A stretch of 64,000 bases of DNA from the NCBI GenBank assembly GCA_903928895.1, contig CAIYSR010000043.1:62001-126000 (forward strand), written 5' to 3'. This DNA is from an uncultured Rhodospirillales bacterium. GTDB lineage: Bacteria; Pseudomonadota; Alphaproteobacteria; Acetobacterales; Acetobacteraceae. Both the position numbers and the translations under genes were made by a program. This document shows, in pieces, positions 40,343-56,516 of the stretch; the first letter of the stretch is position 1; the number at the start of each line of letters is the position of its first letter. A model generated the notes under the pieces. The model was not told the DNA's origin. It searched no databases and saw only the letters and a program-made list of their open reading frames with translations.

Positions 40343-41793
40343 ACGCCATCCATTTCGACAACAGCTATGCCCGCCTGCCCCAGCGTTTCTTCGCCCATCG
40401 CCCGCCGGCCCCGGTGGCGGCGCCGCGGCTGATCCGGCTCAATATCGGGCTGGCCGAGGAACTCGGCCTCGATCCGGCCGCGCCATGGGGCGATATCGTG
40501 GCCGGCAACCTGGTGCCGGCGGGGGCTTCGCCGATCGCCATGGCCTATGCCGGGCACCAGTTCGGCCATTTCACACCGCAACTCGGCGACGGCCGGGCGG
40601 TGCTGCTCGGCGAGATCGTCGCCCCCGACGGCACACGGCGCGATCTGCAACTGAAGGGATCCGGACGCACCGAATTTTCGCGCGGCGGCGACGGGCGGGC
40701 GGCGCTTGGGCCGGTGCTGCGGGAATATATCGTGGCCGAGGCGATGGCCGCGCTCGGCATCCCGACCACGCGGGCGCTGGCCGCGGTGACCACCGGGGAG
40801 GCGGTGTATCGCGAGACCGCGCAACCCGGCGCAGTGCTGGCCCGCGTGGCGGCGAGCCATATCCGGGTTGGCACGTTCCAGTATTTCGCCGCCCGGCAGG
40901 ATGAGGAGGGGCTGCGCCTGCTCGCGGACCATGCCATCGCCCGGCATTATCCGCAGGCGGCGCAAGCGGCGAATCCCTATCGTGCCTTCTTCCAGGCGGT
41001 GCTCGCGCGGCAGGCCAGTCTGGTCGCGCGCTGGATGCATGTCGGCTTCATCCATGGCGTGATGAACACCGACAATTGCGCAATCTCCGGCGAGACCATC
41101 GACTACGGCCCCTGCGCCTTCCTCGACGAGTACGAGCCGGCCAAGGTGTTCAGCTCGATCGACCATGGCGGGCGCTACGCTTTTGCCAACCAGCCGCGCA
41201 TCGTGCAGTGGAACCTGGCCCGCCTCGCCGAATGCCTGCTGCTGCTGATCGATGCAGACATCGAGATCGCGATCGCCCAGGTCAAGGAGGACCTCGCCGG
41301 ATTCGGCGCGCTGTTCGAGGACGCCTATGCCGCGGGACTGCGGGCCAAGCTCGGCCTCGCCACCGCCGCCCCGGGGGACCTCGAACTGGCGGAGGACCTG
41401 CTGGAACGGATGGCGGAGAACCATGCGGATTTCACCCTGACGTTCCGCGCGTTGTGCGACGCCGCGGAGAGCTCCGCCAACGACGCCGGGGTGCGGGAGC
41501 GGTTCACCGATCCCGCCGCCTTCGACGCCTGGGCGATCATCTGGCGCGAGCGCCTGTCCCGCGAGCCGGCATGGCCCCGCGCGGCGACGATGCGCAACGC
41601 CAACCCGGCCATCATCCCGCGCAACCACCGCATCGAGGCCGTCATCCAGGCGGCAGTGGAGAACGACGACTTCGCCCCGTTCCACGACCTGGTCGAGGCC
41701 CTCGCCACCCCTTATGGCCCGCAGCCCGACGGCCCCAATGCCTGGCCGCCGCGCGAGGAGCAGCGGGTGAGCCAGACCTTCTGCGGCACCTGA
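40339..41793 (+). CDS. selO: SelO-type protein adenylyltransferase (YdiU)
   Basis: Pseudokinase-fold enzyme (484 residues) that transfers AMP to Ser/Thr/Tyr of redox-related proteins. [20 protein letters not shown] and [20 protein letters not shown] form the inverted nucleotide-binding region. [20 protein letters not shown] supplies the catalytic Asn and metal-binding Asp. The C-terminus ends SQTFCGT with a Cys. That position is selenocysteine in eukaryotic SelO, so here the Cys form is used. It is translationally coupled to the P1 peptidase. Confidence 0.95.
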
Positions 41794-41946
41794 CGCCGCC
41801 GGCGGCCGCGGGGTTGCAGTTTTCGCTGGCACCGCCCACGATGGCACTCGGATTTGTATCTATCGTCATCAATTTTCATCCCCTATAGCCTGCCAATCAG
41901 CGCGCGGCATGAACCGCGCCACCCAAAACCCAGAGGAGAGCTGTCC

Positions 41947-43080
41947 ATGCTGATCACACGCCGCTCGGCGTTGCTGTCCGCCGCCACCGTCACCAGCCTC
42001 GGCATCGCCGGGCGCGCCCGCGCCGCCGAAACGATGAAGATCGGCGTGGTCTCGCCGCTGACCGGCCCGGTCGCCGAAGCCGGCCGCATCCAGTTGAATT
42101 CGCTGCGTCTGGCGGTTGAAAAACAGAACGCCGCCGGCGGCGCGCTGGGCCAGCAGATCGAACTCATCGTCGAGGACGACCAGTCGACCAATCCGGGCGC
42201 GGTGCTGGCGTTCTCGCGCCTGGCCGAGCGCAAGGAGATCGCCGGCTTCATCGGCTCGATCCGCTCCACCCAGATGAACGCGATGGCGCCGGACATGCTC
42301 AAGGTGGCCAAGCCGGTCATGTTCGGCGGCACCGATCCGACGCTGACCAAGCTTGGCAATCCGTGGCTGTTCCGCTGCCGGCCGAACGACAGCTATTCGG
42401 GCCGGGTGATCGTCAGTTTCATCACCGGCTCGATGAAGCTCAAGAAGGTGGCGCTGATCCATTCGACCGATGCGTTCGGCACCGGGGGCAAGAACGCGAT
42501 CCTGGCCAATCTGGAGAAGCAGGGGCTGCAGCCGGTGCTGGTGCAGGGCTACACCAACAACCAGCCGGACTTCTCGCCGGTGGTGCTGGCGGTGAAGTCC
42601 TCGGGCGCGGATGTGATCGTGTCGTATTTCACCAACGAGCCGGATTGCGCGGTGTTCGCCCGCCAGCTCCGCCAGCTCGGCGTGCGCACCCCCTGGGTCG
42701 GCTCGCCGTCGATCCAGTCGCCGGTGACGCGCGGGCTGGCCAAGAATGCGCTGTACGGCACCTATGCGGTGGCTGATTTCGTGGAGGATTCGAACCCCAC
42801 CGCCAAGGCCTTCGCCGACACGTATCGCGCCAAGCACAAGGAAAGCCCGGACAGCGGCTGGACCTATGACGGACTGATGATCCTGGCCAAGGGGATCAAC
42901 GACTCGAAATCCACCGAGCCGGAGAAGATCCGGCAGGCGATCCTGTCGATCAAGAAGTATGCCGGCACCGAGGGCGAATACAACTTCGACCAGTTCGGCG
43001 ACGGGCTGCACGGGTACAACATTGTCATCAACAACAACGACAAGATCGACTACAAGGAACACATCGAGTTCACCGACTGA
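41947..43080 (+). CDS. livK: branched-chain amino-acid ABC transporter substrate-binding protein
   Basis: Periplasmic binding protein (377 residues) for leucine/isoleucine/valine-type or related ligands. The ATG at 41947 has GAGGAGA upstream. Residues 1-27 form a signal peptide with a twin-Arg (TRRSALL) and an Ala-rich end. The mature start KIGVVSPLTGPVAEAGRIQL and the segments IVEDDQSTNPGAVLAFSRLA and GSIRSTQMNAMAPDMLKVAK match the LivK family. It heads an operon livKHMGF. The exact ligand is not certain because the family also binds amides and aromatic acids. Confidence 0.93.
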   Translation: MLITRRSALLSAATVTSLGIAGRARAAETMKIGVVSPLTGPVAEAGRIQLNSLRLAVEKQNAAGGALGQQIELIVEDDQSTNPGAVLAFSRLAERKEIAGFIGSIRSTQMNAMAPDMLKVAKPVMFGGTDPTLTKLGNPWLFRCRPNDSYSGRVIVSFITGSMKLKKVALIHSTDAFGTGGKNAILANLEKQGLQPVLVQGYTNNQPDFSPVVLAVKSSGADVIVSYFTNEPDCAVFARQLRQLGVRTPWVGSPSIQSPVTRGLAKNALYGTYAVADFVEDSNPTAKAFADTYRAKHKESPDSGWTYDGLMILAKGINDSKSTEPEKIRQAILSIKKYAGTEGEYNFDQFGDGLHGYNIVINNNDKIDYKEHIEFTD

Positions 43081-43096
43081 TCGAAGGGCCGTCTCG

Positions 43097-43972
43097 GTGA
43101 GCGATTTCCTCCAGCTGGTATTCCAGGGCCTCGGCATCGGCGCGATCTACGCGCTGGTGTCCCTGGGCTTCGTGCTGCTGATCCGGGCCGCGAGCGTGGT
43201 GAATTTCGGGCAGGGGGAATTCTCCATGCTCGGGGCCTACCTGCTCGTGGTGTTCTTCAACATCCTCGGCATCAACTACTTCTTCGGCATCGGGTTGTCG
43301 GTGATCATCATGGCCGGGTTCGGCCTGATTTTTGCGTACGCAACCTACTGGCCGCTGCGGTTCCGCGGCGGCTTGCCGGTGATCATCAGCACGATTGGGG
43401 CCTCGATTTTCCTGCAGAACATGGTGCTGTGGATCTACGGCCCCAGCACCGTGCCGATCGACGGGCTGTTCGACAGCGACGGCTTCCAGATCGGCGAGGT
43501 GTTCATTTCGAGCCAGTATCTCGCCATCATCGTCATCGCTGCGGCTCTCGTGCTGCTGCAATACGTGATTTTCGAGAAGACCCTGCTCGGCAAGAAGCTC
43601 CAGGCGACCAGCCAGGACAAGGAAATGGCGTCGCTGCTCGGCATTCCGGTGGTGATCATGATCATGATCACCTTCGCCTATAGCGCCGCCCTCGGCGGCC
43701 TGGCCGGAATCCTGGTGGCGCCGATCCTGTTCGTCTCGGTCGGCATGGCGGGAATCATCACGCTGAAGGCCTTCGCCGCCAACATTATCGGCGGCTACGG
43801 CTCCATCCCCGGCGCCATCCTCGGCGGCCTCGCCTTGGGCATCGCCGAAACCCTCGGGGCCAACTACATCTCGGTGCCCTACAAGGACGCCTTTGCCTTC
43901 CTGATGCTGCTGGCGTTCCTCATGGTGCGGCCACAGGGGCTGTTCGGCGAGAAGATTTCGGAGAAGGCATGA
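43097..43972 (+). CDS. livH: branched-chain amino-acid ABC permease LivH
   Basis: Permease of 291 residues with about eight helices. It begins at a GTG (43097) with AAGGGC upstream; the open frame extends upstream into livK but is not coding there. Motifs: GLGIGAIYALVSLGFVLLIR at the N-terminus, NFGQGEFSMLGAYL, and the ATPase-contact loop LQATSQDKEMASLLGIPV. The end GLFGEKISEKA overlaps the livM part by four bases. Confidence 0.93.
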   Translation: MSDFLQLVFQGLGIGAIYALVSLGFVLLIRAASVVNFGQGEFSMLGAYLLVVFFNILGINYFFGIGLSVIIMAGFGLIFAYATYWPLRFRGGLPVIISTIGASIFLQNMVLWIYGPSTVPIDGLFDSDGFQIGEVFISSQYLAIIVIAAALVLLQYVIFEKTLLGKKLQATSQDKEMASLLGIPVVIMIMITFAYSAALGGLAGILVAPILFVSVGMAGIITLKAFAANIIGGYGSIPGAILGGLALGIAETLGANYISVPYKDAFAFLMLLAFLMVRPQGLFGEKISEKA

Positions 43973-45753
43973 CCGTTCTTTCAGGCCAGGGTCTTCACGG
44001 ACCCGGGGCGAACCCCTGGCGCGGCCTGCCGCAGGCCGTTCTCGCCATCGTCGTGGTCGTGATCGGCGCGCGCTTCGCGCCGGCGCAGGGCTACTACCTC
44101 AACATCCTCATGCAGGCCGCAACCTACGCCATCGGCGTGCTCGGTCTCGTGATCGTGCTCGGCTATTGCGGGCAGATCTCCATCGCGCAGGCCGCCTTCT
44201 TCGGCATCGGCGCCTATGCGGTGGCACTCGGGACGGTCGATTTCCATATCAATTTCTTCGTTGCGCTGTTTATCGGTGTGGCCCTCTCCGGCCTCTGCGG
44301 GCTGATCCTCGGCCTTGGCACCCTGCGCCTGGGTGGCCACTATCTCGGCATGATCACCATCAGTTTCCAGCAGATACTTACGCTGGTGCTGACCAACTGG
44401 ATCGAGTTTACCCACGGGCCGGATGGCGTGCGCAACGTGGCGCGCCCTATGCTCTTTGGCTTCAGCTTCGATGATGGCAACACCTATCTCGCCCTCATCC
44501 TCGCCGCTGCCGTGATGGTCACTTTATTCGTCTGGCGGCTGAAGGCGAGCCGGCTGGGCCGCGCGATGCAGGCGGTGCGCGACAACGAGCTGGCGGCCTC
44601 GACCTCGGGCATCAATGTCTATGGCACCAAGGTGGTGGCGTTCGGCATTTCGGCGGTGCTGGGAGCCATCGGCGGCGGGCTGTTCGCCGGCGGGTTCCGC
44701 TACATCAGCCCGGATCAGTTCAGCTTCGGCGAATCGATCGTGCTGCTGACCATGGCGCTGCTCGGCGGCGTGACCTCGCCGTTCGGGGCCCTGGTCGGCA
44801 CGGTGTCGCTGGTGCTGCTTCCGGAGTGGCTGCGTTTCCTCAAGCAGGTCTATCTCGCGGTCTACGGCGCCTCGGTCATCCTCATCATGGTTTTCCTGCC
44901 CGACGGGCTGTGGGGCTTCGTCGACAACCGGATGCGCAGGCGGGTCAAACCCGTCACCGGCGATGTGCCGCCGCTGCCGCTGCTGGCGCAGAGCGGCGAG
45001 GCGACGGAGGAGCCGGTGCTCGTGGTGGAGGAACTGGCCAAGCATTTCGGCGGGCTCAAGGCAGTCGATGGCGTGAGCCTGACGGTGCGCCGCGGCACGG
45101 TGCATGCGCTGATCGGGCCGAACGGCTCGGGCAAGACCACGTTCATCAACGTGGTGACCGGGCTGTACGAGGCGACCGGCGGCAAGATCACCTTCGTCGG
45201 GCGGGACATCACCACCCTGGCGCCACACAACCGCAACCGCGCCGGCCTCGCCCGCACCTATCAGAACATTCGGGTGTTCCGCGGCATGACCGTGTTGGAG
45301 AATGTGATGATCGGGGCGGAGCGGCAGGGCAACGACGTGGCGCATGATCCCCAGGCGGTGGTCGCGCGGGCGCTGGCGGCGCTCGATTTCGTCGAGATGC
45401 GGGGCGACGCGCACCGCCTGGTCGGGGATTTGTCGTATGGCCATCAGCGCTATGTCGAGATCGCCCGCGCGCTGGCGTCGAGCCCGCACACGCTGCTGCT
45501 GGACGAGCCGGCGGCGGGGCTGAACCTGACCGAGAAGGTCGAACTCGGCAATCTGCTCAAACGGCTGAAAGGCCATGGCCTGACCATCATGATCATCGAC
45601 CACGACATGAACCTCGTCGAACAGGTCGCCGACCACATCACCGTGCTCAACTTCGGCAAGCGCATCGCCGACGGCAAGCCGCAGGACGTGCTCAGCCATC
45701 CCGACGTCATCGCCGCCTATCTCGGGGAGCCGCGCAAACATGAAGCTGCTTGA
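43969..45753 (+). CDS. fused LivM permease - LivG ATPase
   Basis: Single protein of 594 residues joining the second permease and the first ATPase of the leucine-type ABC system. Residues 1-325 form LivM: LGYCGQISIAQAAFFGIGAY, GGHYLGMITISFQQILTLVL and AVRDNELAASTSGINVYGTK. A short linker leads to LivG at about 350. LivG has Walker A GPNGSGKTTFINV, Q loop AGLARTYQNIR, signature LSYGHQRYVEIARAL (with His in place of the usual Gln) and Walker B LLLDEPAAGLN. All catalytic features of the ATPase are present. The fusion removes the usual separate livG start. Confidence 0.94.
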   Translation: MTVLSGQGLHGPGANPWRGLPQAVLAIVVVVIGARFAPAQGYYLNILMQAATYAIGVLGLVIVLGYCGQISIAQAAFFGIGAYAVALGTVDFHINFFVALFIGVALSGLCGLILGLGTLRLGGHYLGMITISFQQILTLVLTNWIEFTHGPDGVRNVARPMLFGFSFDDGNTYLALILAAAVMVTLFVWRLKASRLGRAMQAVRDNELAASTSGINVYGTKVVAFGISAVLGAIGGGLFAGGFRYISPDQFSFGESIVLLTMALLGGVTSPFGALVGTVSLVLLPEWLRFLKQVYLAVYGASVILIMVFLPDGLWGFVDNRMRRRVKPVTGDVPPLPLLAQSGEATEEPVLVVEELAKHFGGLKAVDGVSLTVRRGTVHALIGPNGSGKTTFINVVTGLYEATGGKITFVGRDITTLAPHNRNRAGLARTYQNIRVFRGMTVLENVMIGAERQGNDVAHDPQAVVARALAALDFVEMRGDAHRLVGDLSYGHQRYVEIARALASSPHTLLLDEPAAGLNLTEKVELGNLLKRLKGHGLTIMIIDHDMNLVEQVADHITVLNFGKRIADGKPQDVLSHPDVIAAYLGEPRKHEAA

Positions 45754-46471
45754 GATCAAGGGCCTCACCGCCAGCTATGGCGCCGGGCCGGTGCTGAAGG
45801 GGCTCGACATCAGTGTCGACGAGGGCGAGATCGTCACCCTGCTCGGCTCCAACGGGGCGGGCAAATCGACCACGCTGCGCTCGCTGTCGGGGCTGGTGCC
45901 GAATGTGAGCGGGGAAATCCTGTATCGCGGCCAGAGCATCAAGGGGCTGAAGCCGGAGGCGATCGTGCGGTTGGGGATTTCCCATGTGCCGGAGGGGCGG
46001 CGGATTTTTCCAGGGCTGACGGTGCGCGAGAATATCATTCTCGGCGCCTCCAACCGCAAGGGCGTGGCGCGGCGGGTGCTGGAGGGGGAGGTCGATGAGA
46101 TGCTGGCCTTCTTCGCCGATCTCAAGCGGCTGGAGCATGCGCTGGGATGGACGCTGTCGGGTGGGCAGTTGCAGATGGTGGCCGTGGCGCGCGGGCTGAT
46201 GGCGCAGCCGAAGCTGCTGCTGCTGGACGAGCCGTCGCTTGGGCTGGCCCCGTTGATCGTGCAGCAGGTGTTCCGCATCGTGGAGAGCATCCGCAGCCGC
46301 GGCACCACGGTGCTGCTGGTGGAGCAGAACGCCCATATGGCACTTTCGGTGGCCGACCGCGGCTATGTGCTGGAAACCGGCACGCTGCTGGTCTCGGGCA
46401 AGCCCGAGGCGCTGTGGAACAATCCGCAGGTACGGGCCGCCTATCTCGGCGGCGGCGGCGCCCACAGGTGA
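45740..46471 (+). CDS. livF: branched-chain amino-acid ABC ATPase LivF
   Basis: Cytoplasmic ATPase of 243 residues. Walker A is GSNGAGKSTTLRSL, the signature is LSGGQLQMVAVARGLM, Walker B is LLLLDEPSLGL and the switch His is in VLLVEQNAHMALS. SHVPEGRRIFPGLTVRENI is specific for LivF. It overlaps the LivM-LivG reading frame by 14 bases and is the last gene of the operon. A long inverted repeat 32 bases after its stop may end or protect the transcript. Confidence 0.95.
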   Translation: MKLLEIKGLTASYGAGPVLKGLDISVDEGEIVTLLGSNGAGKSTTLRSLSGLVPNVSGEILYRGQSIKGLKPEAIVRLGISHVPEGRRIFPGLTVRENIILGASNRKGVARRVLEGEVDEMLAFFADLKRLEHALGWTLSGGQLQMVAVARGLMAQPKLLLLDEPSLGLAPLIVQQVFRIVESIRSRGTTVLLVEQNAHMALSVADRGYVLETGTLLVSGKPEALWNNPQVRAAYLGGGGAHR

Positions 46472-46502
46472 TCGCGGGGGTGAGGGGCGTAGCGTAATGC
46501 AA

Positions 46503-46573
46503 GCTAAGCAGGCTTTCGCAGGACAGCCCACGGATGCATTTTCAAACATCTTGCAGGCGAAAGCCAGCTTAGC
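46503..46573 (+). repeat. 17-bp inverted repeat after livF
   Basis: GCTAAGCAGGCTTTCGC at 46503-46519 pairs with GCGAAAGCCAGCTTAGC at 46557-46573 with one mismatch. The 37-base loop contains a smaller GATG/CATC stem. A second weak hairpin follows at 46587-46607. It may be a livF transcript terminator or a small RNA, but it has no T-run. Confidence 0.6.
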
Positions 46574-47331
46574 ATTCAGCAAGAGTGCAAACCTGAGAGG
46601 CTTTGCTTAGGCGGGGGCGGTGCCCCTCGACCCTCCTTTAGAGTGGCATCGGTTGGGGCAGGCGTCATGTTTCGCGGCGCGACAGCCGCAGGGCAGCATG
46701 CGAATCGGCGAGACGGCCGTGTCGATGCGCCGGCCACGGTCCGAGAAAGCTATTCGGTCAGCTGAATTCAAACAACAAACCAGTCCAATCACGACTCGAG
46801 ATCGGCATCAACGAACCGACTCGGCCGCGCCGTCACGACCAGACCAACACCTCCGGGTGATTCGACTCGCGATGAGTGTGCCATCGAAGCGAAGCGTCAT
46901 CGTGTGCGGAGAGCGGGAGGTGCGCGGCGCCGGCGCCACGCACCTGTGGCATGGCAAAGCCCGGCCAATTCGGAGCAGGCAACAGGGACACGATTGAAGA
47001 TGGTGACGCGGCCGGTCGTGGTGCTGCCGCGGCCGGTTGCAGATGCCGCGCCTGACGAGGTGGTGCACGATCAGGTGGTATCGAGCGAGAGGCTGCGTTG
47101 CAGCCCACCGTATTCCGTGACGGCGTTTTCCGGTCGGTGATCGCCTTGGCCCGGCACCGACCGGCCGGAGGTCGTCTGACGCTGAACTCATGGCATTCGC
47201 GGCAGACACAAATTCCTCCGCAAGCCTCGACGCGGCGGGTTCCCGTGAGGGCGCGGCGGGACGTTGTTCCCGAGCGCCATGGACGCCGTCTTCGAGCTTC
47301 CGGCTGATGAAATCCGATCATGCTTGATCAC
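46574..47331. other. non-coding stretch, no gene recognised
   Basis: About 760 bases without a supportable gene. A partial dispersed repeat (GGGGGCGGTGCCCCTCGACC) lies at about 46611-46630. A minus-strand frame at 46833-47321 contains C-R-E-C-H, but its composition is biased and it has no relatives that I know. The region looks like decayed intergenic DNA. Confidence 0.6.
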
Positions 47332-47671
47332 GCTCCAGGGCAATCGTGTGAAGGCAGGCAACGCAATCAAGGCTCCGCCGGCAAAGGGCCGCGGGCCCTT
47401 TGAACCCGTTCCATTCCGCGGCTGGATCAGCGACCTTCAGTTGAAAACACCGATCTTGCTTGCGCCGCAGGCCATCGATCCTGCGATATCGGCACGATCT
47501 TGCCCGTGAGGAAAGAATTGATGGGCTCCGCCCGCCTCCGCACGCGAGATCGCGGGCTTCCAACTGAAGGTCAGTGATCCGGCCGCTCAAATGAATGGGT
47601 CCAGGGGCCTACGGCCCTTGGCCGGCGGAGCCTGTCTTGTTCGCTTCGCCTTCACCCGATTGCCCTGGATC
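47332..47671. repeat. large imperfect inverted repeat (two ~126-base arms)
   Basis: The left arm is about 47332-47457 and the right arm about 47546-47671, in opposite orientation, with an 88-base centre. Shared blocks include CCAGGGCAATCG, GTGAAGGC, GGCTCCGCCGGC, AAGGGCC, and GACCTTCAGTTG; the arms differ by scattered substitutions and small gaps. Both arms contain an inner palindrome resembling the dispersed repeat of this genome. It ends about 65 bases before the selenoprotein start. It could form a cruciform or be two copies of a small mobile repeat in head-to-head array. Confidence 0.75.
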
Positions 47672-47735
47672 ACGCTCGGTACGATTGCATTGGGCGCTGC
47701 CGCATGGTCCAGTGTCGGGATATGGAGGGATTCGA

Positions 47736-48941
47736 ATGGCTCGGATTGATGATATCCCGCAGGGCACGCGGCAGGCCGTGCTTGGGCTGCAGATCGCGTC
47801 GTTCGACACCGAGCCCTTCGTTTCCGGGCCACCATTGGCGCGGCGGCGGGTGGCGGTGATCAGTTCGGCGGCGCTGCACCCGCGTGGGTCCGCGCCTTTC
47901 CTGCCGGGGACGGCGGAAATGCGCATGCTGCCAGCAACTTTGCCGGCTGGTGACATCGTCATGAGCCATGTCTCCATCAACTACGACCGTGCCGGCTGGC
48001 AACGAGACATCAACACGATCTACCCGCTGGACCGGTTGCGCGAGCTCGCGGCGTCCGGGGTGATCGGGTCGGTGGCAGAGACACATTATTCGGTGATGGG
48101 TTCGACCGATCCGGCAACGATGCAGGCGACGGCGGAACAGATCGTGGGGCAACTGCAGCAGGAGCGCAGCGATGCGGTTCTGCTCAGCCCTGTCTGACCC
48201 TTCTGCACGCGCGCCGTGAGCGCGCTTGGCCACATGATCGAGAGCCTGGGCGTACCCACTGTGGTGCTTGGCCTTGTGCGCCCGCATATGGAGACGACGC
48301 GGCCGCCGCGCGGGTTGTTCGTGCCGTTCCCGCTGGGCCGGCCGTTGGGCGAACCGGAAGATGCAGCCTTCCAAACGCGGGTACTGCGGCATGCTCTGGG
48401 ACTGTTGGAGCGGAACGATGGGCCCGTGATCCTGGAGGACTTCGGCGAGGATGCGCCGAGCCAGACGGCCTTGGCCGGATGGGCGCCGCCCTTCGTGTTG
48501 CCGATGCCCGGTGAGGTTTCCGCGGCTTCTTTGCGGACCGAGATGGAACTCGTAATACCCTGGTGGATGCGCGCACAGGCACGTTTCGGGCGGACCACGG
48601 TTGGGGCATCCGGGATTGCGCCGCAGGCGTGGCCGGCGTTTTTCGCGGCGTTCTTGGCGGGTGAGGTGCCAGCAAGCCCGGTGGCCGGATTGACGCCGGC
48701 GCTGGCGCTGCGTTTTGCATGCGATGATGTGAAGGCGCTCTACAGCGAGGCCGCGCAGGCGGAGGGGCCGATGCCGGGGATCCGCCAGGTTGACGGCTGG
48801 TTCTGGACAGCGACACTCGCCGGACGGCTACTGATCGCGCTGCGAACGGCGGGGATGGCGAGTTCCGACAACGCCGTGCGCACAGTGGCCGGGCGGTTCT
48901 TTGTCCCCGCGCCATTCCTCCCCCCTGCCGCAGGACATTGA
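47736..48941 (+). CDS. GrdB-like selenoprotein with in-frame UGA (Sec154)
   Basis: One 401-residue protein read through UGA at 48195-48197. The ATG at 47736 has GGAGG seven bases upstream. Residues 1-153 contain GTRQAVLGLQIASFDTEPFV, SHVSINYDRAGWQRDINTIY and PLDRLRELAASGVIGSVAET. The UGA falls in SPV-U-PFCTRAVSAL, a U-x-x-C redox motif (Sec154, Cys157). Translation continues in the same frame with PTVVLGLVRPHMETTRPPRG, VPFPLGRPLGEPEDAAFQTR and the usual C-terminus. The whole matches the glycine/sarcosine/betaine-reductase selenoprotein B-like family (GrdB/PrdB-like) common in proteobacteria, some with Cys instead of Sec. No initiation site supports a separate second gene. A SECIS-like hairpin follows the UGA. 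In clostridia GrdB reduces amino-acid derivatives; here no other reductase subunits are near, so the substrate is unknown. Confidence 0.88.
48195..48225 (+). promoter_or_regulatory. UGA-Sec codon and SECIS-like hairpin
   Basis: After the UGA (48195-48197) come 11 bases. A perfect 6-bp stem follows, GCGCGC (48209-48214) with GCGCGC (48220-48225), closed by the five-base loop CGTGA. One mismatch below, A-U and C-G pairs extend it. The loop starts 17 bases after the UGA and its second base is G. These values fit the published general model of bacterial SECIS elements (short apical loop with a G in its first two bases, 16-37 bases from the UGA). The hairpin is coding as well, within residues 158-164. 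Confidence 0.75.
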
Positions 48942-49167
48942 GCGTGCAAGAGGCCGACGCTTCGAGATTTCGAGGCGGTTGCGGGCGAGACCGGGCAGTC
49001 CACGATGGCACGATGGGAGCAAGCGGGTTCCCGTGGTGAGGAATGATGGAGGACGGGTGCCGACGACTTCCTGTGGTGAACGTTGGGGTCTGCGTCAGAG
49101 GGTGGAACTTAATGTTCCTGGATGAAGGGCAGATGCTTTGAGCATGCTCACATCTCGGCACAACCGT

Positions 49168-49826
49168 TCAGGGCGCCGTGTTAGGATAACTGTTGCCCCC
49201 ATGTCCGTCCCGGCAGGCGCGCGGGTGTTGGCCCAGGCGTGCGATCGCCCCAGGTGGACCGCGGCGCAACCGGATGTCGACCTCTCGGTCAGCGTAGCGC
49301 CACTCCGGCGTATCATGCAGCCTCGTAACCATGTCCTCGAAGGCCTGGGCGTCGTCGGGTGCATATTCGAACCAGGTGAGAAAGTCGAACATTTCCCCCA
49401 CGTCCTGGCAATGATGCAGGCGCCGGGCGACGGCCGGAAGATAGTCCGGCCCGATGCGGATATGGCGCGAATGCTCCTCGAAAATCGCGTGTCGCTCGTC
49501 TTGCGCCAAATCCCACCATGCGCTGGTCGTGCAAATGGGATCCGGGCGGCACAGTCGGCCGACGGGCGATGCAACCCTGCCTGAAGAGCGCCCGGCGCAT
49601 TCAATTCCATTCGGTTCGTATAGCGCGTATTGCTGGTCACCCCACGCAGGAGCCAATCGGCGCTGCGCGGAGATTGCGTCTCCTGGCCCTCCAGAACCGC
49701 TATCCGTTCCCTCAGGGGTAGGCTGTCACCGCAAACCGCGCTGATCCGCTCAACACGCCGCCGACCGGCTTGGCCGGCGGCGAAGGTAACACGAAGAGGC
49801 GGGGCCATCGGAGTGCCCTCATTCAA
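49168..49826 (-). pseudogene. frameshifted chlorite-dismutase-family gene
   Basis: Two minus-strand frames together encode a short (Nitrobacter-type) chlorite dismutase-like haem protein. From 49826 or 49808 the first frame gives the N-terminal half: VTFAAGQAGRRRVERISAVC, ADWLLRGVTSNTRYTNR and ALQAGLHRP. Near 49515-49525 the match jumps by one base to the other frame, which continues AWWDLAQDERHAIFEEHSRH, GPDYLPAVARRLHH, FDFLTWFEYAPDDAQAFEDM and EWRYADREVDIRL. The alignment across the junction needs one missing base before the A-W-W codons. The haem-ligand region (RRLHHCQ) is preserved. It could be a true decayed gene or a sequencing error; the sequence is otherwise well conserved, so the loss may be recent. 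Confidence 0.8.
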
Positions 49827-49878
49827 TGGACGAACACGAACACCCCGTTCGCAGGCATTGGGGAGAGGATCGCTGCTA

Positions 49879-50400
49879 TCAAGATCCCTGCACCGGCGCG
49901 TTCAACGCAAGCAACTGCGTTGGCGCGCCGTCGAGTTCCACGTCCTGCTCGAAAGAAAAGCCGTTGCGCTCCAGCACACGGCGGGAAGCAGGGTTTGCGA
50001 CTCTGACCAGTCCAATCACACGATGCGCCTGGAGCGGACCGAACCCAACTTTAACGGTCTCGCCAACTAGTTCTGTCGCATAGCCGTTCCCCCAGCGGTC
50101 AGGATGCAGATGATAGGAGATATTGAGGCCTTCGAATCCATGCTTGTGCGTAAGGCCGCCGAAACCGACGATCTGCCCTTCATGCTCAATGGCCCAGCGC
50201 CCAAAGCCATGTGATTGCCAATGCTGCATGTCGCGCAGCAAGCGTTGCTCACTCACCTCCGGAGAATCTGGAACCGGATGCGGGCGATGGGCAACAAGCT
50301 CAAATCGGGAAAACAGGGCCGCCACGAAATCAAGGTCGGCAGCGTTTGGTCGTCGCAATACGAGACGGGCTGTCTGGCGGCGATAAACTTCGTTCTCCAT
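49879..50400 (-). CDS. RimJ/RimL-type GNAT acetyltransferase
   Basis: Acetyltransferase of 173 residues. The N-terminal TARLVLRRPNAADLDFVAAL and the acetyl-CoA loop HPDRWGNGYATELVGETVKV identify the GNAT_3 (RimJ/RimL) group, followed by NPASRRVLERNGFSFEQDVE. Proteins of this kind acetylate ribosomal proteins, antibiotics or small amines. It begins at an ATG and ends 52 bases before the start of the chlorite-dismutase remnant. No operon partner is visible. Composition is slightly less GC-rich than the core genes. Confidence 0.85.
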   Translation of the reverse strand: MENEVYRRQTARLVLRRPNAADLDFVAALFSRFELVAHRPHPVPDSPEVSEQRLLRDMQHWQSHGFGRWAIEHEGQIVGFGGLTHKHGFEGLNISYHLHPDRWGNGYATELVGETVKVGFGPLQAHRVIGLVRVANPASRRVLERNGFSFEQDVELDGAPTQLLALNAPVQGS

Positions 50401-50533
50401 GTAGCTGTGACCTTTCTGCTCTCCGCAACCTCTCTGGCGTGTCGATCGTCATCGCACGCCGTTGGTTGGACGGGCACGGTCTGACCGCACGCGTGCACAC
50501 GTCAAGCCCTTCGGAACTTCCTGCCCCATCGTG

Positions 50534-50690
50534 CATGGTGGTGATCGACCGGACCGAATTCGGCGATATCCAGGGGCTTGCGCTGCCCGCGCCGGAGATC
50601 GTCGCGGCCATTGCGGAGGGGCGGCGGCCGGCCGAGATGACGCCGGGCGTGTTGCTGCGGCCGTTTGCGGTTGAGTGCGTGAGGCAATCA
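50534..50690 (+). pseudogene. possible C-terminal fragment of a serine recombinase
   Basis: The frame encodes IQGLALPAPEIVAAIAEGRR followed by PAEMTPGVLLRPF. It resembles the C-terminal end of large serine recombinases (L-A-P-x-I-V-x-A-I-x-x-G-R-Q-P). No catalytic domain exists upstream, and the match is short, so this is a weak call. The rest of the gap 50401-51014 contains the dispersed repeat and no other gene. Confidence 0.35.
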
Positions 50691-50930
50691 GCGGAGCCTT
50701 GTGGCAAATACGAAGATTCGCACCCGGCCCTCAATGCCAACCCGAACAAGATGCCAACTCTCGTGCCGCCTACGCAATGTAGAATTCGATAATTTCTTCT
50801 TATTGCATGCTTGGGCTTAACCTTCGGTGACGACAATCAGACTACCCGGGGCGAGTTCGGTCAAGGAGGGCCCACGCCCCGCGACCCCACCAGGTCCGTT
50901 TCGCGCGCCGCTTCAATCATGGAACCGCTC

Positions 50931-50994
50931 AAACGGATGCGGGTCTGGGGGCTCTGAGCCCCCAGCGGGTCCAGGGCAGCGCCCTGGCCTTGCT
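50931..50994 (-). repeat. dispersed double-palindrome repeat, copy 3
   Basis: Read on the minus strand this gives CAAGGCCAGGGCGCTGCCC, then TGGACCCGCTGGGGGC with its mirror and CAGACCC. It is nearly identical to the copy at 4622-4675, including an A-T-C-C-G-T-T-T flank. A further partial unit (GGGCCCACGCCCCGCGACCCC) lies at about 50868-50888. It is located downstream of the CoA-transferase gene, as expected for a repeat at transcript ends. Confidence 0.8.
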
Positions 50995-51014
50995 TCCCCT
51001 GCCTTATGCCCCCT

Positions 51015-52145
51015 TCACCCCGCGAATTCCTCCCGGATGGCGATGGAGTGTGCCCCGATGGCGGGGACCGGGCCGAGGGTGCGCGGGCCGTCGCTGAAGA
51101 TGGCTGGCGGCGAGGCGATGGCGACGGGGCCGTTCGGGGTTTCCACGACGTGGCGGCGCAGGGCGGGGTGGCGGGAGAATTCGGCGACGGTGTTGACGAA
51201 GCCGTAGGCGGTGTTGGCCGCGCGCAGGCGGGCGGCGGCTTCGTCGCGGGTCAGGGCGGCGAAGACGGTGGCGATGTGGGCGTCGACTTCGGCGCGGTTG
51301 GCGACGCGGACGACGTTGGTTTCGAAGCCGGGACGGGCGGGGAGGGCGGGGTCGAGCATGAAGCGGGCGCAGAAATCCTTCCACTCGCGCTCGTTCTGGA
51401 TCGAGATCAGCACCAGGGCGCCGTCGCGGGTGGGGAAGGCGCCGTAGGGGCAGATCGAGGGGTGGGCGAGGCCCATGCGTTCGGGGGCTTTGCCGGTGCC
51501 TTCGAAGAACAGCAGAGGAACGTTCATCCAGTCGGCCATGCCGTCGAACAGGCTGACCTTGATGCCCTTGCCTTGGCCGGTGATGCCGCGGGCGATGAGG
51601 GCTTCGAGCACGCCGGCATGGGCGGCCATGCCGCAGGCGATATCGCAGGCGGAGACGCCGATGCGGCCGGGGCCGGCGGGATGGCCGGTGATGGAGGCGA
51701 TGCCGGATTCGGCCTGGACCAGAAGGTCGTAGGCCTTCATGTCGGCGTATTCGCCCTGGTCGCCGTAGCCGGAGATGTCTACGGTGATGAGGCGGGGGTG
51801 ACGGGCGCGCAGGTCGTCCGAGCCGAAGCCGGAGCGGGTGGCGGCGCCGGGGGCGAGGTTCTGGATGAAGACGTCGGCCTTGGCGAGAAGGCGGTGCAGC
51901 AGGGCAGCGTCGGCCTCGTGCTTGATGTCGACGACGAGCGATTCCTTGCCGCGGTTGAGCCAGACGAAATAGCTCGACATGCCGCGGGCGGCCTGGTCGT
52001 AGCCTCGGGCGAAATCGCCTTCGGGGCGTTCGAGCTTGATGACGCGGGCGCCGGCGTCGGCCAGGCGGGACGAGCAATAGGGGGCGGCGACGGCCTGCTC
52101 CAGGGTGACGACGAGGAGGCCTTCGAGCGGGCGGGCGGCGGACAT
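51015..52145 (-). CDS. family III CoA-transferase (CaiB/BaiF type)
   Basis: Enzyme of 376 residues that moves CoA between acyl-CoA and a carboxylic acid. N-terminal LEGLLVVTLEQAVAAPYCSS and RLADAGARVIKLERPEGDFA are hallmarks. The region GRIGVSACDIACGMAAHAGV contains the expected catalytic Asp. YFVWLNRGKESLVVDIKHEA is also typical. It follows the acyl-CoA dehydrogenase by three bases and is surely co-transcribed. The pair suggests activation of an organic acid followed by alpha,beta-oxidation; the acid is unknown. Confidence 0.92.
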   Translation of the reverse strand: MSAARPLEGLLVVTLEQAVAAPYCSSRLADAGARVIKLERPEGDFARGYDQAARGMSSYFVWLNRGKESLVVDIKHEADAALLHRLLAKADVFIQNLAPGAATRSGFGSDDLRARHPRLITVDISGYGDQGEYADMKAYDLLVQAESGIASITGHPAGPGRIGVSACDIACGMAAHAGVLEALIARGITGQGKGIKVSLFDGMADWMNVPLLFFEGTGKAPERMGLAHPSICPYGAFPTRDGALVLISIQNEREWKDFCARFMLDPALPARPGFETNVVRVANRAEVDAHIATVFAALTRDEAAARLRAANTAYGFVNTVAEFSRHPALRRHVVETPNGPVAIASPPAIFSDGPRTLGPVPAIGAHSIAIREEFAG

Positions 52146-52148
52146 CGC

Positions 52149-53315
52149 TCAGTAGCTCCGGGGCAGGCCGAGCACGTGCTCGGCGACGTAGGAGAGGATC
52201 AGGTTCGTGCTGATGGGCGCGACCTGGTAGAGGCGGGTTTCGCGGAATTTGCGCTCAATGTCGTATTCCTCGGCAAAGCCGAAACCGCCATGGGTCTGGA
52301 TGCAGGCCTCGCCCGCGGCCCATGAGGCCTCGGCGGCCAGCATCTTGGCCATGTTGGCCTCTTCGCCGCAGTTTTCGCCGGCTTCGAACTTGCGGCAGCC
52401 TTCGCGGACCATGAGTTCGGCCGCACGCATCTGGGCATAGGCCTTGGCGATGGGGAACTGGACGCCCTGGTTCTGGCCGATCGGACGGCCAAACACGCGG
52501 CGCTCGCGGGCATAGGCAGTGGCCTTCTCGATGAACCACTTGGCGTCGCCGATGCACTCCGCGGCGATCAGCAGGCGCTCGGCGTTCATGCCGTCGAGGA
52601 TGTAGCGGAAGCCGCGGCCCTCGACGCCGACCAGGTTCTCGGCAGGGACGATCATGTTGTCGAAGAACACCTCGCACGAGTTGTGGTTCATCATCGTGCG
52701 GATCGGGCGCAGGGTAAGGCCGTGGCCGAGGGCGGCGCGCATGTCGACGATGAAGGTGGAGAGCCCCTCGGTGCGCTTGGCGGTCTCCTCCTTCGGCGTG
52801 GTGCGGGCGAGCAGGAGCATGAGGTCGGAATGCTCGGCGCGGCTGGTCCATACCTTCTGGCCATTGACGACGTAATGGTCGCCCTCCTTGCGGGCGAAGG
52901 TGCGCAGGCTGGTGGTGTCGGTGCCGGAGGTCGGCTCGGTGACGCCGAAGGCTTGCAGGCGGAGCTCGCCGGTGGCGATCTTGGGAAGATAGGCCTCCTT
53001 CTGCGCGGTGGTGCCGTGGCGCAGGATGGTGCCCATAATGTACATCTGGGCGTGGCAGGCGGCCCCGTTGCAGCCGGAGGACTGGACGGTCTCCAGGATG
53101 GCGGCCGCGGCCGAGAGCGGCAGGCCGGCGCCGCCGTATTCCTCCGGGATGAGGGCGCCGAGATAGCCGGCCTCGGTCAGAGCGGTGACGAATTCGGTGG
53201 GGTAGGTGCGGTCCTGGTCGAGCTTGCGCCAGTAGTCGCCGGCGAAATCGGCGCAGAGCTTGCGCACGGCGTCGCGGATTTCGGCGTGCGGATCGGTGGC
53301 TTCGGTGTGGTCCAT
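52149..53315 (-). CDS. acyl-CoA dehydrogenase
   Basis: FAD enzyme of 388 residues. The FAD/substrate regions are QAFGVTEPTSGTDTTSLRTF and NGQKVWTSRAEHSDLMLLLA, and the C-terminal part has HGGFGFAEEYDIERKFRETR. The short-chain catalytic Glu position (YEG in relatives) is replaced here by QVAPIS. Glu246 in DGMNAERLLIAAECIG instead fits the position used by isovaleryl-CoA dehydrogenase. The enzyme is thus more likely for a branched or unusual acyl-CoA. It forms an operon with the CoA-transferase and diverges from the oligopeptidase gene. Confidence 0.92.
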   Translation of the reverse strand: MDHTEATDPHAEIRDAVRKLCADFAGDYWRKLDQDRTYPTEFVTALTEAGYLGALIPEEYGGAGLPLSAAAAILETVQSSGCNGAACHAQMYIMGTILRHGTTAQKEAYLPKIATGELRLQAFGVTEPTSGTDTTSLRTFARKEGDHYVVNGQKVWTSRAEHSDLMLLLARTTPKEETAKRTEGLSTFIVDMRAALGHGLTLRPIRTMMNHNSCEVFFDNMIVPAENLVGVEGRGFRYILDGMNAERLLIAAECIGDAKWFIEKATAYARERRVFGRPIGQNQGVQFPIAKAYAQMRAAELMVREGCRKFEAGENCGEEANMAKMLAAEASWAAGEACIQTHGGFGFAEEYDIERKFRETRLYQVAPISTNLILSYVAEHVLGLPRSY

Positions 53316-53413
53316 GGTGACGTCCCCGGCTGGTCGGGCTGGATTAGGCGGGGGCGGTCACGGTGGCAAGGCGGGAGCTTGACCGGGAGGCCTTCCTTCG
53401 GCACGGATCGGCT

Positions 53414-55444
53414 ATGAGCACAAACCCCTTCTTTACGCCCTGGACCACCCCTTTCGGCGTGCCGCCGTTCGATCTGATCCGGCCCGAGCATTTTGCCGAG
53501 GCCTTGGAGCGCGGGATGGCGGAGCATCTGGCCGAGATCACCGCCATCACCGGCAATCCCGCGGCACCGAGTTTTGAGAACACCATTGTCGCCATCGAGC
53601 GCAGCGGGGGCTTGTTCGAGCGGGTGGCGGGGGTGTTCGGCAATCTGGTGTCGAGCCTGGGCGATGAGGCGTTGCAGGTGATCGAGCGGGACTTCGCGCC
53701 GAAATTCGCCCAGCACGGCAGCCGGATTTCGCTCGATCCGGCATTGTTTTCACGGATCGACGCGTTGTTCCGGCGGCGGGAGGAGCTGGGATTGGCGCCG
53801 GATGCGCTGCGGCTGCTGGAGCGGCGGCATCTCGGCTTCGTGCGTGCCGGCGCGGCGCTGGAAGGGGCGGCGAAGGCGCGGATGGCCGAAATTTCCGAGC
53901 GGCTCGCGGTCCTGCACACCGCGTTCGGACAGAATGTGGTGCATGACGAGCGGGCGTGGCATTTGGCACTGGGCGCGGACGATCTGGCCGGATTGCCGGG
54001 CTTTGTCGTCGAAGGGGCGCAGCAGGCCGCGGCGGAACGCGGGATCGAAGGGTTTGCCATTACCCTGGCACGGTCATCGATCGAGCCGTTCCTGACCTTC
54101 TCGACGCGGCGGGATTTGCGCAAGATCGCCCACTCGGCCTGGATCGCACGGGGCGAGCATGACGGGCCACACGACAATCGCAAGCTGATCCCCGAAATTC
54201 TGGCACTGCGGGCTGAGCGGTCGCGCCTGCTGGGCTATGCGACGTATGCGGAATTCCGCCTGGCCGACACCATGGCGGCCTCGGAGGCCAATGTGGCACG
54301 GCTGACCGACGATGTCTGGCAGGCCGCGCGGCACCGCGCGGAGGGCGAGGCGGCGAAGCTGCTGGAGGTCGCGCGCGGAGATGGCGTGAACGAGCGGATC
54401 GAAAAGTGGGACTGGCTGCATTATGCCGAGCGCGTGCGCATGGCGGAGTTCGCAATCGACGAGGCGGAACTGAAGCCCTACTTCGTGCTGGAAAATATCC
54501 AGCAGGCGGCGTTCGACACCGCGAACCGCCTGTTCGGCCTGACCTTCGAGCCGCGGCCGGATATCGCGGGGTATCATTCGGATATGCGGGCGTGGGAGGT
54601 GCGCGATGCAGGCGGGCATGTCGGCGTGTTCCTGGCCGACAACTATGCCCGGCCGGGCAAGCGTTCCGGTGCCTGGATGAGCAGTTTCCGCGACCAGCGC
54701 GGGCTCGACGGGGCGGTATCGCCGATCATCATCAACAACAACAATTTCGCCCGGGGCACGCCGACGCTGCTCAGCTACGACGACGCCGAGACGTTGTTCC
54801 ATGAATTCGGCCATGCGCTGCATGGGTTGTTGAGCAAGGTGCATTACCCGTCGCAATCCGGCACCTCGGTGCGGCGCGATTTCGTCGAGTTTCCGTCGCA
54901 GATCTATGAGCACTGGCTGGCGGTGCCGGCGACGTTGCAGCGCTATGCGCGGCATCATGAGACCGGCGAGGCGTTGCCGAAGGCGCTGATGGAGCGGCTG
55001 CTCGCGGCACAGACGTTCAACCAGGGGTTCGCGACGGTGGAATATACCGCCTCGGCCATTCTCGACATGGCGCTGCATGCGCACCCGGACCCGGCCGGCA
55101 TGGATGTGGCGGCGTTCGAGGCCGAGGTGCTGACACGGATCGGGATGCCCGACGCGATCGGCGCGCGGCATCGGCCGCCGCATTTCCAACATTTGTTCGC
55201 CGGCTCCGGCTATGCCGCGGGCTACTACTCCTACCTTTGGGCCGAAGTGCTCGATGCCGACGGCTTCGGCGCGTTCGAGGCGGCTGGGGATCCATTCGAT
55301 CCGGCGGTGGCGGCGCGGCTGCGGGCGATCCTGGAGGCGGGGGACACCAAGGACCCGATGGAACTCTACGTGGCGTTCCGCGGCGAAGCCCCGAGCACCG
55401 AGGCGCTGCTGCGCCATCGCGGGCTGGTGGCGCTGGGGACGTAG
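53414..55444 (+). CDS. M3-family oligopeptidase (OpdA/Dcp type)
   Basis: Zinc metallopeptidase of 676 residues that degrades short peptides in the cytoplasm. The zinc site is FHEFGHALHGLLS, HEFGH at residues 463-467, with the third ligand Glu in the following helix (VEFPSQIYEHW). The N-terminal HFAEALERGMAEHLAEITAI is the usual OpdA/Dcp start. FLADNYARPGKRSGAWMSSF is conserved too. The ATG at 53414 matches the family; the open frame begins 51 bases earlier. It is transcribed away from the CoA-transferase operon. Confidence 0.94.
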   Translation: MSTNPFFTPWTTPFGVPPFDLIRPEHFAEALERGMAEHLAEITAITGNPAAPSFENTIVAIERSGGLFERVAGVFGNLVSSLGDEALQVIERDFAPKFAQHGSRISLDPALFSRIDALFRRREELGLAPDALRLLERRHLGFVRAGAALEGAAKARMAEISERLAVLHTAFGQNVVHDERAWHLALGADDLAGLPGFVVEGAQQAAAERGIEGFAITLARSSIEPFLTFSTRRDLRKIAHSAWIARGEHDGPHDNRKLIPEILALRAERSRLLGYATYAEFRLADTMAASEANVARLTDDVWQAARHRAEGEAAKLLEVARGDGVNERIEKWDWLHYAERVRMAEFAIDEAELKPYFVLENIQQAAFDTANRLFGLTFEPRPDIAGYHSDMRAWEVRDAGGHVGVFLADNYARPGKRSGAWMSSFRDQRGLDGAVSPIIINNNNFARGTPTLLSYDDAETLFHEFGHALHGLLSKVHYPSQSGTSVRRDFVEFPSQIYEHWLAVPATLQRYARHHETGEALPKALMERLLAAQTFNQGFATVEYTASAILDMALHAHPDPAGMDVAAFEAEVLTRIGMPDAIGARHRPPHFQHLFAGSGYAAGYYSYLWAEVLDADGFGAFEAAGDPFDPAVAARLRAILEAGDTKDPMELYVAFRGEAPSTEALLRHRGLVALGT

Positions 55445-55514
55445 CACCAACGGGTGTGGGTGACACCCCGGGCGGGTGCGGGTAACGTCGGGCAAACGCC
55501 ATGAGGGATCGCAC

Positions 55515-56516
55515 GTGCTCAAGCTCGGATACAAGGCTTCCGCCGAACAATTCGCGCCGCGCCCGTTGTTGGAGTTTGGGGTGCTGGCGGAGCAGTCGGG
55601 GTTCGACAGCGTGTTCATCTCGGACCATTTCCAGCCGTGGAAGCATACCGACGGGCATGCGCCGTTCTCGCTGGCGTGGCTGGGCGCGCTGGGGGCGCGG
55701 ACGGAGCGGGTGGTGATGGGGACCTCGGTGCTGACGCCGACGTTCCGTTATCACCCCTCGATTGTGGCGCAGGCGTTCGGCACGCTGGGCTCGATGTTTC
55801 CGGGCCGTGTGGTGCTGGGGATCGGCACCGGCGAGGGGCTCAACGAGGTGCCCTCCACCGGGCAGGCGTGGCCCGAGTTCAAGGAGCGGTTCGCCCGGAT
55901 GCGCGAAAGCGTGACCCTGATGCGGCGGTTGTGGAGCGAGGATCGGCTGACCTTCGAGGGCCAGTACTACCGGACTGAGAACGCGACCATCTACGACAAG
56001 CCGGAGCAGATGGTGCCGATCTACGTCGCCGGCGCCGGGGCGATGGTGGCGAAGTATGCGGGGCGGATGGGCAACGGGTTCATCTGCACCTCGGGCAAGG
56101 CGCCGACGCTTTACACCGAGACGCTGCTGCCGAATGTCGAACTTGGGCGAGCCGAGAGCAAAATCGCCGGCGACTATGACCGCATGATCGAGGTGAAGGT
56201 CTCCTTCGACACCGACAAGGACCGGGCCTTTGCGGATACGCGGCATTGGGCGGCGCTGGCGCTGACGGCGGAGGAGAAAATGTCCGTCGAGGACCCGGCC
56301 GAGATGGAGCGGCTGGCCGATGCGCTGCCGGTCGAACGGGCGGCGAGCCGGTGGATCGTGTCGAATGACGCGGACGAGCATGTCGAGCGGATCGGGTATT
56401 ACGTGGGGCTCGGGTTCAACCATTTGGTGTTCCATGCGCCGGGGCCGGACCAGGCACGCTTCATGCGGCTGTATGCGGAGCATGTGATGCCGAAGCTGCG
56501 CGCGAAGTTCGGCTGA
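55515..56516 (+). CDS. fgd: F420-dependent glucose-6-phosphate dehydrogenase (FGD-like)
   Basis: Luciferase-like TIM-barrel oxidoreductase of 333 residues that oxidises glucose-6-phosphate and reduces F420. Similarity to mycobacterial FGD1 runs over the full length: [58 protein letters not shown] and [20 protein letters not shown]. Catalytic His38, Trp42 and Glu107 correspond to His40, Trp44 and Glu109 of FGD1. The Arg of SRWIV is kept. One phosphate-binding Lys is replaced by Arg ([12 protein letters not shown]). The GTG at 55515 has AGGGA upstream. It heads the cluster fgd-cofE-cofD, which would supply reduced F420. Confidence 0.9.

Follow-up and report, generated by a model that had tools for sequence, protein, structure and literature searches.

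A gene at 47736..48941 on the plus strand of the window, the 64,000-nucleotide stretch of Acetobacteraceae DNA analysed here, very probably encodes a stand-alone PrdB-like protein into which selenocysteine (Sec) is inserted. The reading frame comprises 401 codons plus stop, with the predicted Sec at codon 154, and insertion of Sec at this position is well supported by sequence. The earlier note had proposed that a hidden selenoprotein lies here, split by an in-frame UGA. The conserved UGA, the Sec system of the organism and the Cys/Sec homologues at residue 154 all bear this out. The same note had called the protein GrdB-like in identity and chemistry, and on these points our analysis leads elsewhere.

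A conserved in-frame UGA at codon 154

When TGA is translated as a residue, 47736-48941 (plus strand) encodes 401 residues; one UGA lies inside the frame (U154) and a TGA ends it. A Shine-Dalgarno-like GGAGGG (47724..47729, plus strand), identified by sequence, lies 6 nt 5' of the ATG at 47736. The UGA read as selenocysteine occupies 48195..48197 (plus strand; TGA in relatives, TGC in Cys orthologues), and the ORF list and the translation place the true stop codon, also TGA, at 48939..48941 (plus strand). Since the PrdB-like gene's own terminator is TGA, UGA has not been reassigned wholesale. The motif around codon 154 reads SPV-U-PFC-TR, and Cys157 (48204..48206, plus strand), the second residue of the U-x-x-C pair, is invariant across 66 aligned sequences. 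Under translation table 11 the gene appears as the ORFs 47595-48197 and 48216-48941 in a common frame; the initial description of two same-phase ORFs split by TGA was correct in its coordinates, its residue number (154) and its motif. Both halves had also been described as conserved-looking, and both are indeed under purifying selection in comparison with the three relatives tested, upstream of the UGA (dN 0.15-0.24, dS 0.83-1.66) as well as downstream of it (dN 0.28-0.31, dS 0.97-1.09).

Just 5' of the gene, at 47336-47668, lies an imperfect palindrome of ~333 bp that is a high-copy element. It has 40 full or partial places, its own included, at 94-100% identity (40 of 153 candidates scored), and seems to break the assembly, because 15 of these 40 places start at contig base 1.

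We aligned the joined protein with Cys/Sec homologues at residue 154, as the earlier note had suggested. In a family sample of 200 genomes, matches at E <= 1e-10 came from 42, and the codon-154 column holds TGA in 18 of the 19 close sequences (own included) and TGC in one (L043, from genome G195). A scan of named genomes gave at least 576 confirmed relatives, the best-scoring 80 of which were retained, and TGA stands at the codon-154 column in 80 of these 80 (best 80 of 576). Because TGA is present in all 80 fetched relatives and both halves of the gene are under purifying selection, the UGA at codon 154 is not a chance occurrence. Labels among the best 80 of 576 include Alpha-, Beta- and Gammaproteobacteria, Desulfobacterota, Geobacter, Chloroflexota, SAR202, Dehalococcoidia and one Gemmatimonadaceae; most of these sequences are MAGs, so individual labels may be in error, and some contigs also occur in the 200-genome family sample. 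One relative that does not bear a MAG label is Acidisphaera sp. S103 (L091). With the loci chosen as the top-scoring 80 of 576, most of them from MAGs, distant Cys forms would be under-represented. Four of the 80 loci (L107, L116, L120 and L132) have another copy of the gene close by.

In a class sample of 385 genomes, 33 genomes gave 36 matching places at E <= 1e-60, 33 of which have a TGA inside and three of which are without a stop (G544 and G341 among the stop-free places). Among the 30 class loci read, window included, 29 carry TGA and one carries TGC (L200). Sec is thus not strictly required at this position, because L043 and L200 both carry TGC.

Selenocysteine machinery and a hairpin 3' of the UGA

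A Sec system had been predicted for this organism, and a search of its genome (5.57 Mb, 191 contigs) for selA, selB, selC and selD found all four. SelA (549.6 bits, curated cut-off 267.9), SelB (415.2 bits, cut-off 242.25) and SelD (295.1 bits, cut-off 125) each score above their curated cut-offs, with SelD on a separate contig from SelA and SelB, and a tRNA-Sec gene scores 83.2 bits and is called tRNA-SeC with anticodon TCA by ARAGORN. On the same strand, 5' of the tRNA-Sec gene, lie the genes for formate dehydrogenase alpha and beta, FdhE, SelA and SelB in one cluster (C40:5000-20000). The formate dehydrogenase alpha gene (fdnG) is itself interrupted by an in-frame UGA (codon 197 of the frame read); with readthrough its score is 1412.7 bits.

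We also probed for a link between the gene and the Sec trait by scoring selB at E <= 1e-75 in the 200 family genomes, 55 of which were positive. A selB match was found in 17 of the 18 genomes with the Sec gene versus 38 of the 182 others (Fisher 5e-10, with related genomes treated as independent); G051, which holds a C-terminal gene fragment only, was counted among the 182. The sole Sec-gene genome without a selB match, G111, has a tRNA-Sec gene (84.6 bits), and therefore its selB may have been lost to assembly. In G195, which carries the Cys orthologue L043, selB was not found at 1e-75, and the two top-scoring tRNA-Sec matches proved to be tRNA-Ser genes.

A bacterial SECIS-like hairpin is predicted at 48209..48225 (plus strand), with a stem formed by 48209-48214 and 48220-48225 and the loop CGUGA at 48215-48219. 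The hairpin, GCGCGC-CGUGA-GCGCGC, spans 14-30 nt from the U of the UGA. We compared it with a null in which codons were redrawn synonymously according to each gene's own usage, over 75 distinct windows drawn from the own gene and the 80 relatives. The complete six-pair stem occurs in 54 of the 75 windows, against 3.3 expected, and the six pairs are formed in 94.9% of cells versus 58.1% under the synonymous null. The loop is CGUGA or CGUGG in 54 of 75 windows, and in 72 of 75 windows the 42 nt past the UGA have a folding energy below the null mean (average z -1.3). Among the 29 class loci with TGA, 14 have the full stem and 15 have five pairs; the class Cys locus L200 also has five pairs, so the stem there does not separate Sec from Cys. 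The Cys orthologue L043 keeps 4 of the 6 pairs.

In this exact geometry the own formate dehydrogenase gene forms 2 of 6 pairs, though a different hairpin folds there, and together with three true prdB genes it falls in a range of 2-3 of 6. Because these genes do not fit the geometry, the hairpin is a lineage-type element rather than a universal one. In 40000-56000 of the window, Rfam gave no match at gathering thresholds.

The genome contains a second Sec gene, from a sister family (C68:2400-3023, minus strand; L019, motif CPI-U-PVCHQT), that has the same hairpin geometry as the window gene with other stem letters (CCAGAC-CGUGA-GUCUGG), and eight more Sec copies exist in related genomes. In this sister family all six pairs are present in 9 of 9 Sec genes (two with identical 48 bases) and in 0 of 11 Cys genes. 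The genome also holds a Cys paralogue of the sister family (C111:53329-53952, plus strand; L018, motif VPN-C-PVCHQT), which directly precedes an ORF resembling, by eye, a CoA-transferase. This brings the candidate Sec genes of the genome to at least three: fdnG, the PrdB-like gene in the window and the C68 copy.

These data bear on whether the UGA is a genuine stop. A chance nonsense codon, from a pseudogene or a sequencing error, could be suspected in a draft genome of 191 contigs and in a gene just past a high-copy repeat. The likelihood of this is practically nil, and the reading is ruled out by the TGA in 80 of 80 relatives (best 80 of 576), the purifying selection 3' of the UGA and the conserved hairpin. 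It is also extremely unlikely that one mRNA yields two proteins through a stop at the UGA and re-initiation at GTG 48216, an in-frame codon 19 nt past the UGA. No Shine-Dalgarno-like stretch is seen in the sequence 5' of this GTG, as had been claimed for the second ORF, and the start would fall within helix 155-170 of the predicted structure and within the predicted hairpin loop. Moreover, the Cys orthologue L043 has no stop and reads through. We rejected re-initiation on the conserved TGA, the hairpin and the purifying selection. In the preferred reading, selenocysteine insertion, SelB with Sec-tRNA would bind the hairpin 14-30 nt past the UGA, selenocysteine would go in at residue 154, and translation would continue to the TGA at 48939.

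Family assignment, partner subunit and predicted fold

To which family does the protein belong? Pfam PF07355 (GRDB) matches residues 82-151 only, at 32.5 bits against a gathering score of 22, which places the protein in the superfamily, and the Sec-x-x-Cys motif sits, as had been anticipated, at the Sec column of the PrdB/GrdB superfamily. The best NCBIfam model is PrdB (TIGR04483), which covers residues ~33-225 at 97.9 bits, below its cut-off of 300. Four true PrdBs reach 422.6 (Terrisporobacter), 406.7 (Ligilactobacillus), 310.2 (Peptoclostridium) and 421.4 bits (Acetoanaerobium). TIGR01917, NF040794 and NF040795 give 43.4, 56.4 and 56.8 bits versus cut-offs of 602.2, 800 and 775, and TIGR01918 gives 54 bits versus 65.45. 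The GrdB models are matched over their last third only (about 270-425 of 431-435). All 66 aligned relatives match the same models (PrdB, GrdB-type and Pfam GRDB) at E <= 0.01, and no model in NCBIfam release 20 came closer to the 401-residue protein. In an unrooted 52-row tree the window's family lies on one side of a branch (95/96), and the four PrdBs form a separate group (100/99).

The GrdB identity does not hold, since only the last third of the GrdB models is covered, all NCBIfam cut-offs are missed and PrdB is nearer. Full membership in either family was rejected on the unreached cut-offs (97.9 vs 300 for PrdB; 43-57 bits for the GrdB-type models) and on the lack of a PF09338 partner in the genomes searched. 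Judged by its sequence, the protein is nearer PrdB than GrdB, yet belongs to neither family by NCBIfam cut-off. Because it falls below every NCBIfam cut-off and its gene has an internal UGA, it is likely to be annotated as two fragments.

Known clostridial enzymes of the GrdB/PrdB type rely on a pyruvoyl partner or group. We searched for the pyruvoyl-subunit family PF09338 and found it in 0 of 19 genomes (the own genome, 17 Sec-gene relatives and G195), whereas each of the two control plasmids gave a match, as did three PrdA proteins compared with the same model. PrdA lies just 5' of PrdB in 3 of 4 PrdB regions (annotated in L157 and L158, and recognized in L160 by TIGR04480 at 1024 bits). For L159, the prdB of a Peptoclostridium acidaminophilum plasmid, no prdA is listed within 5 kb in a gene table that is incomplete; this prdB scores just over the PrdB cut-off (310.2 bits), and its listed neighbours include an EamA transporter and a group II intron gene. 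Thus, whereas PrdA adjoins PrdB upstream in 3 of 4 regions, no PF09338 homologue was found in the genome of the window protein. GrdA (PF04723) has no match in the genome and none in 14 control genomes either. GrdB-like chemistry, the other part of the original assignment, is accordingly disfavoured, as the known enzymes use a pyruvoyl partner and neither the own genome nor the 18 family relatives gave a PF09338 match.

We consider it very unlikely that the gene encodes a true D-proline or glycine reductase subunit, acquired from anaerobes and carrying out the clostridial reaction. Such an origin would suit PrdB as the best NCBIfam match (97.9 bits), the Pfam GRDB score above gathering (32.5 vs 22) and a Sec column that is the same as in PrdB. 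However, 97.9 bits is far below the PrdB cut-off of 300 whereas the four true PrdBs score 310-423, no PF09338 partner was found in the 19 genomes searched, with 2 of 2 controls positive, and GrdA gave no match, though in a search without a working control. Furthermore, the protein has 401 aa and an extra domain versus 237-241 aa in three PrdBs, and the four PrdBs group apart in the tree (100/99).

The gene neighbourhood was inspected next to these searches. In the window, a branched-chain amino-acid type ABC transporter lies on one side of the PrdB-like gene and further on, on the opposite strand, are an ORF without a family match, a GNAT acetyltransferase, a CoA-transferase and an acyl-CoA dehydrogenase. 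Neighbours were clustered over the window plus 80 loci (best 80 of 576). Among the 30 largest clusters listed, the largest real-looking ones are TetR-type (14 loci), SDR-like (10, assigned by eye), ABC ATPases (8) and an EamA transporter (7; a single member was scanned). Because four of its loci are labelled Reyranella and three Rhodospirillales, the loci of the TetR cluster are not independent; several other clusters of 5-6 loci are mostly Reyranella-type, and still others consist of antisense or shifted-frame ORFs. Five of 81 loci (L100, L101, L109, L119 and L131) have a TetR-type ORF on the same strand no more than 250 bp upstream, and the two TetR proteins scanned (L119 and L131) match PF16925. 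Among the 19 family loci, no neighbour cluster is shared by more than 3. Since the neighbours lack conservation, gene context does not reveal a pathway, and an operon-based function was rejected for want of a widely shared cluster (<=3 of 19 family loci; TetR close upstream in 5 of 81).

An AlphaFold model of the protein has a mean pLDDT of 94.7. It predicts an alpha/beta region (residues 1-243; 47736..48464, plus strand), within which residues ~33-225 match the PrdB model, and a C-terminal helical domain (residues 263-389; 48522..48902, plus strand) that is absent from the PrdBs of 237-241 aa. Sec154 sits after the central strand 147-151, just before helix 155-170. Charged residues invariant in 66 aligned sequences occur in both domains (R63, H78, D84, D91, R100, E269 and E338), and the C-terminal domain accounts for E269 and E338 along with the invariant W355. 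Pfam has no match to the C-terminal domain in the 66 members at E <= 0.01. A fold search with the whole model and with the C-terminal domain returned nothing at E <= 0.001, which is no proof of a new fold, and the one Asp/Glu racemase-like hit was a glutamate racemase chain at rank 26 (E 0.083). In a second fold comparison the matches were of a generic alpha/beta kind, reaching Z 8.1; the helical domain reached Z 4.2 at most. Neither result points to a function. By sequence, the single protein found no solved relative, and its profile gave one chance match (E 0.84). Because no clear solved relative was found, our reading of the active site draws on PrdB homology and the predicted model.

The U-x-x-C pair could in principle serve general redox defence, as in an antioxidant of the thiol-disulfide or peroxide type with no specific metabolite. 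U-x-x-C is a common redox motif (PMC1088965, in excerpt), and induced expression would be in keeping with the TetR-type ORF that 5 of 81 loci have within 250 bp upstream. Against this, thioredoxin-type matches are weak and below cut-off (E 0.027; one of 66 members at E 0.0034), and the numerous charged residues that are invariant in the two domains point to a pocket for a specific substrate. We regard an antioxidant role as unlikely.

The reading we prefer is that the product is most likely a stand-alone member of the PrdB/GrdB superfamily and a self-contained selenol reductase, in which Sec154 and Cys157, located where a helix behind the central sheet begins, would form a selenol/thiol pair. 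Its most likely chemistry would be a two-electron reduction or reductive bond cleavage of a small electrophilic substrate, presumably without a pyruvoyl group. Sec would attack, Cys157 would resolve the intermediate to a selenenylsulfide, and the cellular thiol system would restore the pair. The C-terminal helical domain would probably close the active site, the part that PrdA/GrdE plays in clostridia. For reductase chemistry taken by itself, which we infer from homology, we see about an even chance.

Comparison with known PrdB-type selenoproteins

PrdB is read as D-proline reductase, an enzyme of anaerobic fermentation, and the Acetobacteraceae are mostly aerobic. The earlier note took GrdB-like chemistry outside the anaerobic clostridia as a novelty. 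Occurrence outside that group stands, while its newness does not, since excerpts of the Sargasso Sea (2005; PMC1088965) and GOS (2008; PMC2398784) accounts already report PrdB selenoproteins there. In these excerpts, PrdB is the third most abundant known selenoprotein family of the Sargasso Sea set, with 42 genes (PMC1088965), and GOS holds 235 Sec and 110 Cys sequences of PrdB, placed under PF07355 (PMC2398784). An excerpt of PMC9312934 counts PrdB among the five most widespread bacterial selenoproteins, and the roles of GrdB and PrdB are treated in an excerpt of PMC13188914. PrdB-type selenoproteins outside clostridia are, on these excerpts, already known. In the excerpted 2006 survey FdhA was the only selenoprotein of Sec-using Alphaproteobacteria (PMC1794560), whereas this genome has FdhA plus two PrdB-like Sec genes.

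The marine PrdB of the Sargasso and GOS accounts resembles the window family by description: it has a U-x-x-C motif and is abundant in the surface ocean. Marine-labelled relatives of the window gene exist, for example SAR202 L108. The accounts, as excerpted, name the protein PrdB and describe no C-terminal domain. A word search of PMC1088965 found no mention of PrdA, and the parts of the literature searched held no description of a stand-alone form of 400 residues.

Tentatively, and as a proposal to which we give somewhat less than an even chance, the window gene would represent an unnamed, mostly Sec-using family of ~400 residues in Proteobacteria, Desulfobacterota and Chloroflexota. It would combine the PrdB selenol domain with its own substrate-closing helical domain, lack a pyruvoyl partner and catalyse an undescribed reductive reaction, and the marine 'proline reductase' would largely be this enzyme. 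If marine 'PrdB' does belong to the window family, its assigned function would be wrong, and an abundant ocean selenoenzyme would be without a known substrate. The PrdB-like family is in any case widespread, with relatives in Proteobacteria, Desulfobacterota, Chloroflexota and others (best 80 of 576).

Several known systems can be set beside the protein. GrdB, GrdF and GrdH (PF07355, TIGR01917, TIGR01918, NF040794 and NF040795) share with it a match before and around the Sec. The proteobacterial 'glycine/sarcosine/betaine reductase selenoprotein B family protein' (C/U-P-V-C-H-Q-T), the sister family described above, belongs to the same superfamily with the same Sec/Cys column, but is ~300 aa long in two plasmid copies (302 and 308) and forms a separate clade (100/99); its 22 tree rows comprise 13 Cys and 9 Sec forms, a proportion that reflects the sequences chosen. 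PrdB itself (TIGR04483; the Terrisporobacter pTP2 and Ligilactobacillus plasmid copies) is homologous over window residues ~33-225 at 27-34% identity and likewise has U-x-x-C, with Sec at 151 in PrdB and at 154 in the window protein. By contrast, three translated PrdBs are 237-241 aa long and read U-G-T-C-H-R, where the window protein has 401 aa and reads U-P-F-C-T-R. The window gene and its relatives represent a branch that lacks a partner homologue in the searched genomes, keeps the selenol site and has an added domain.
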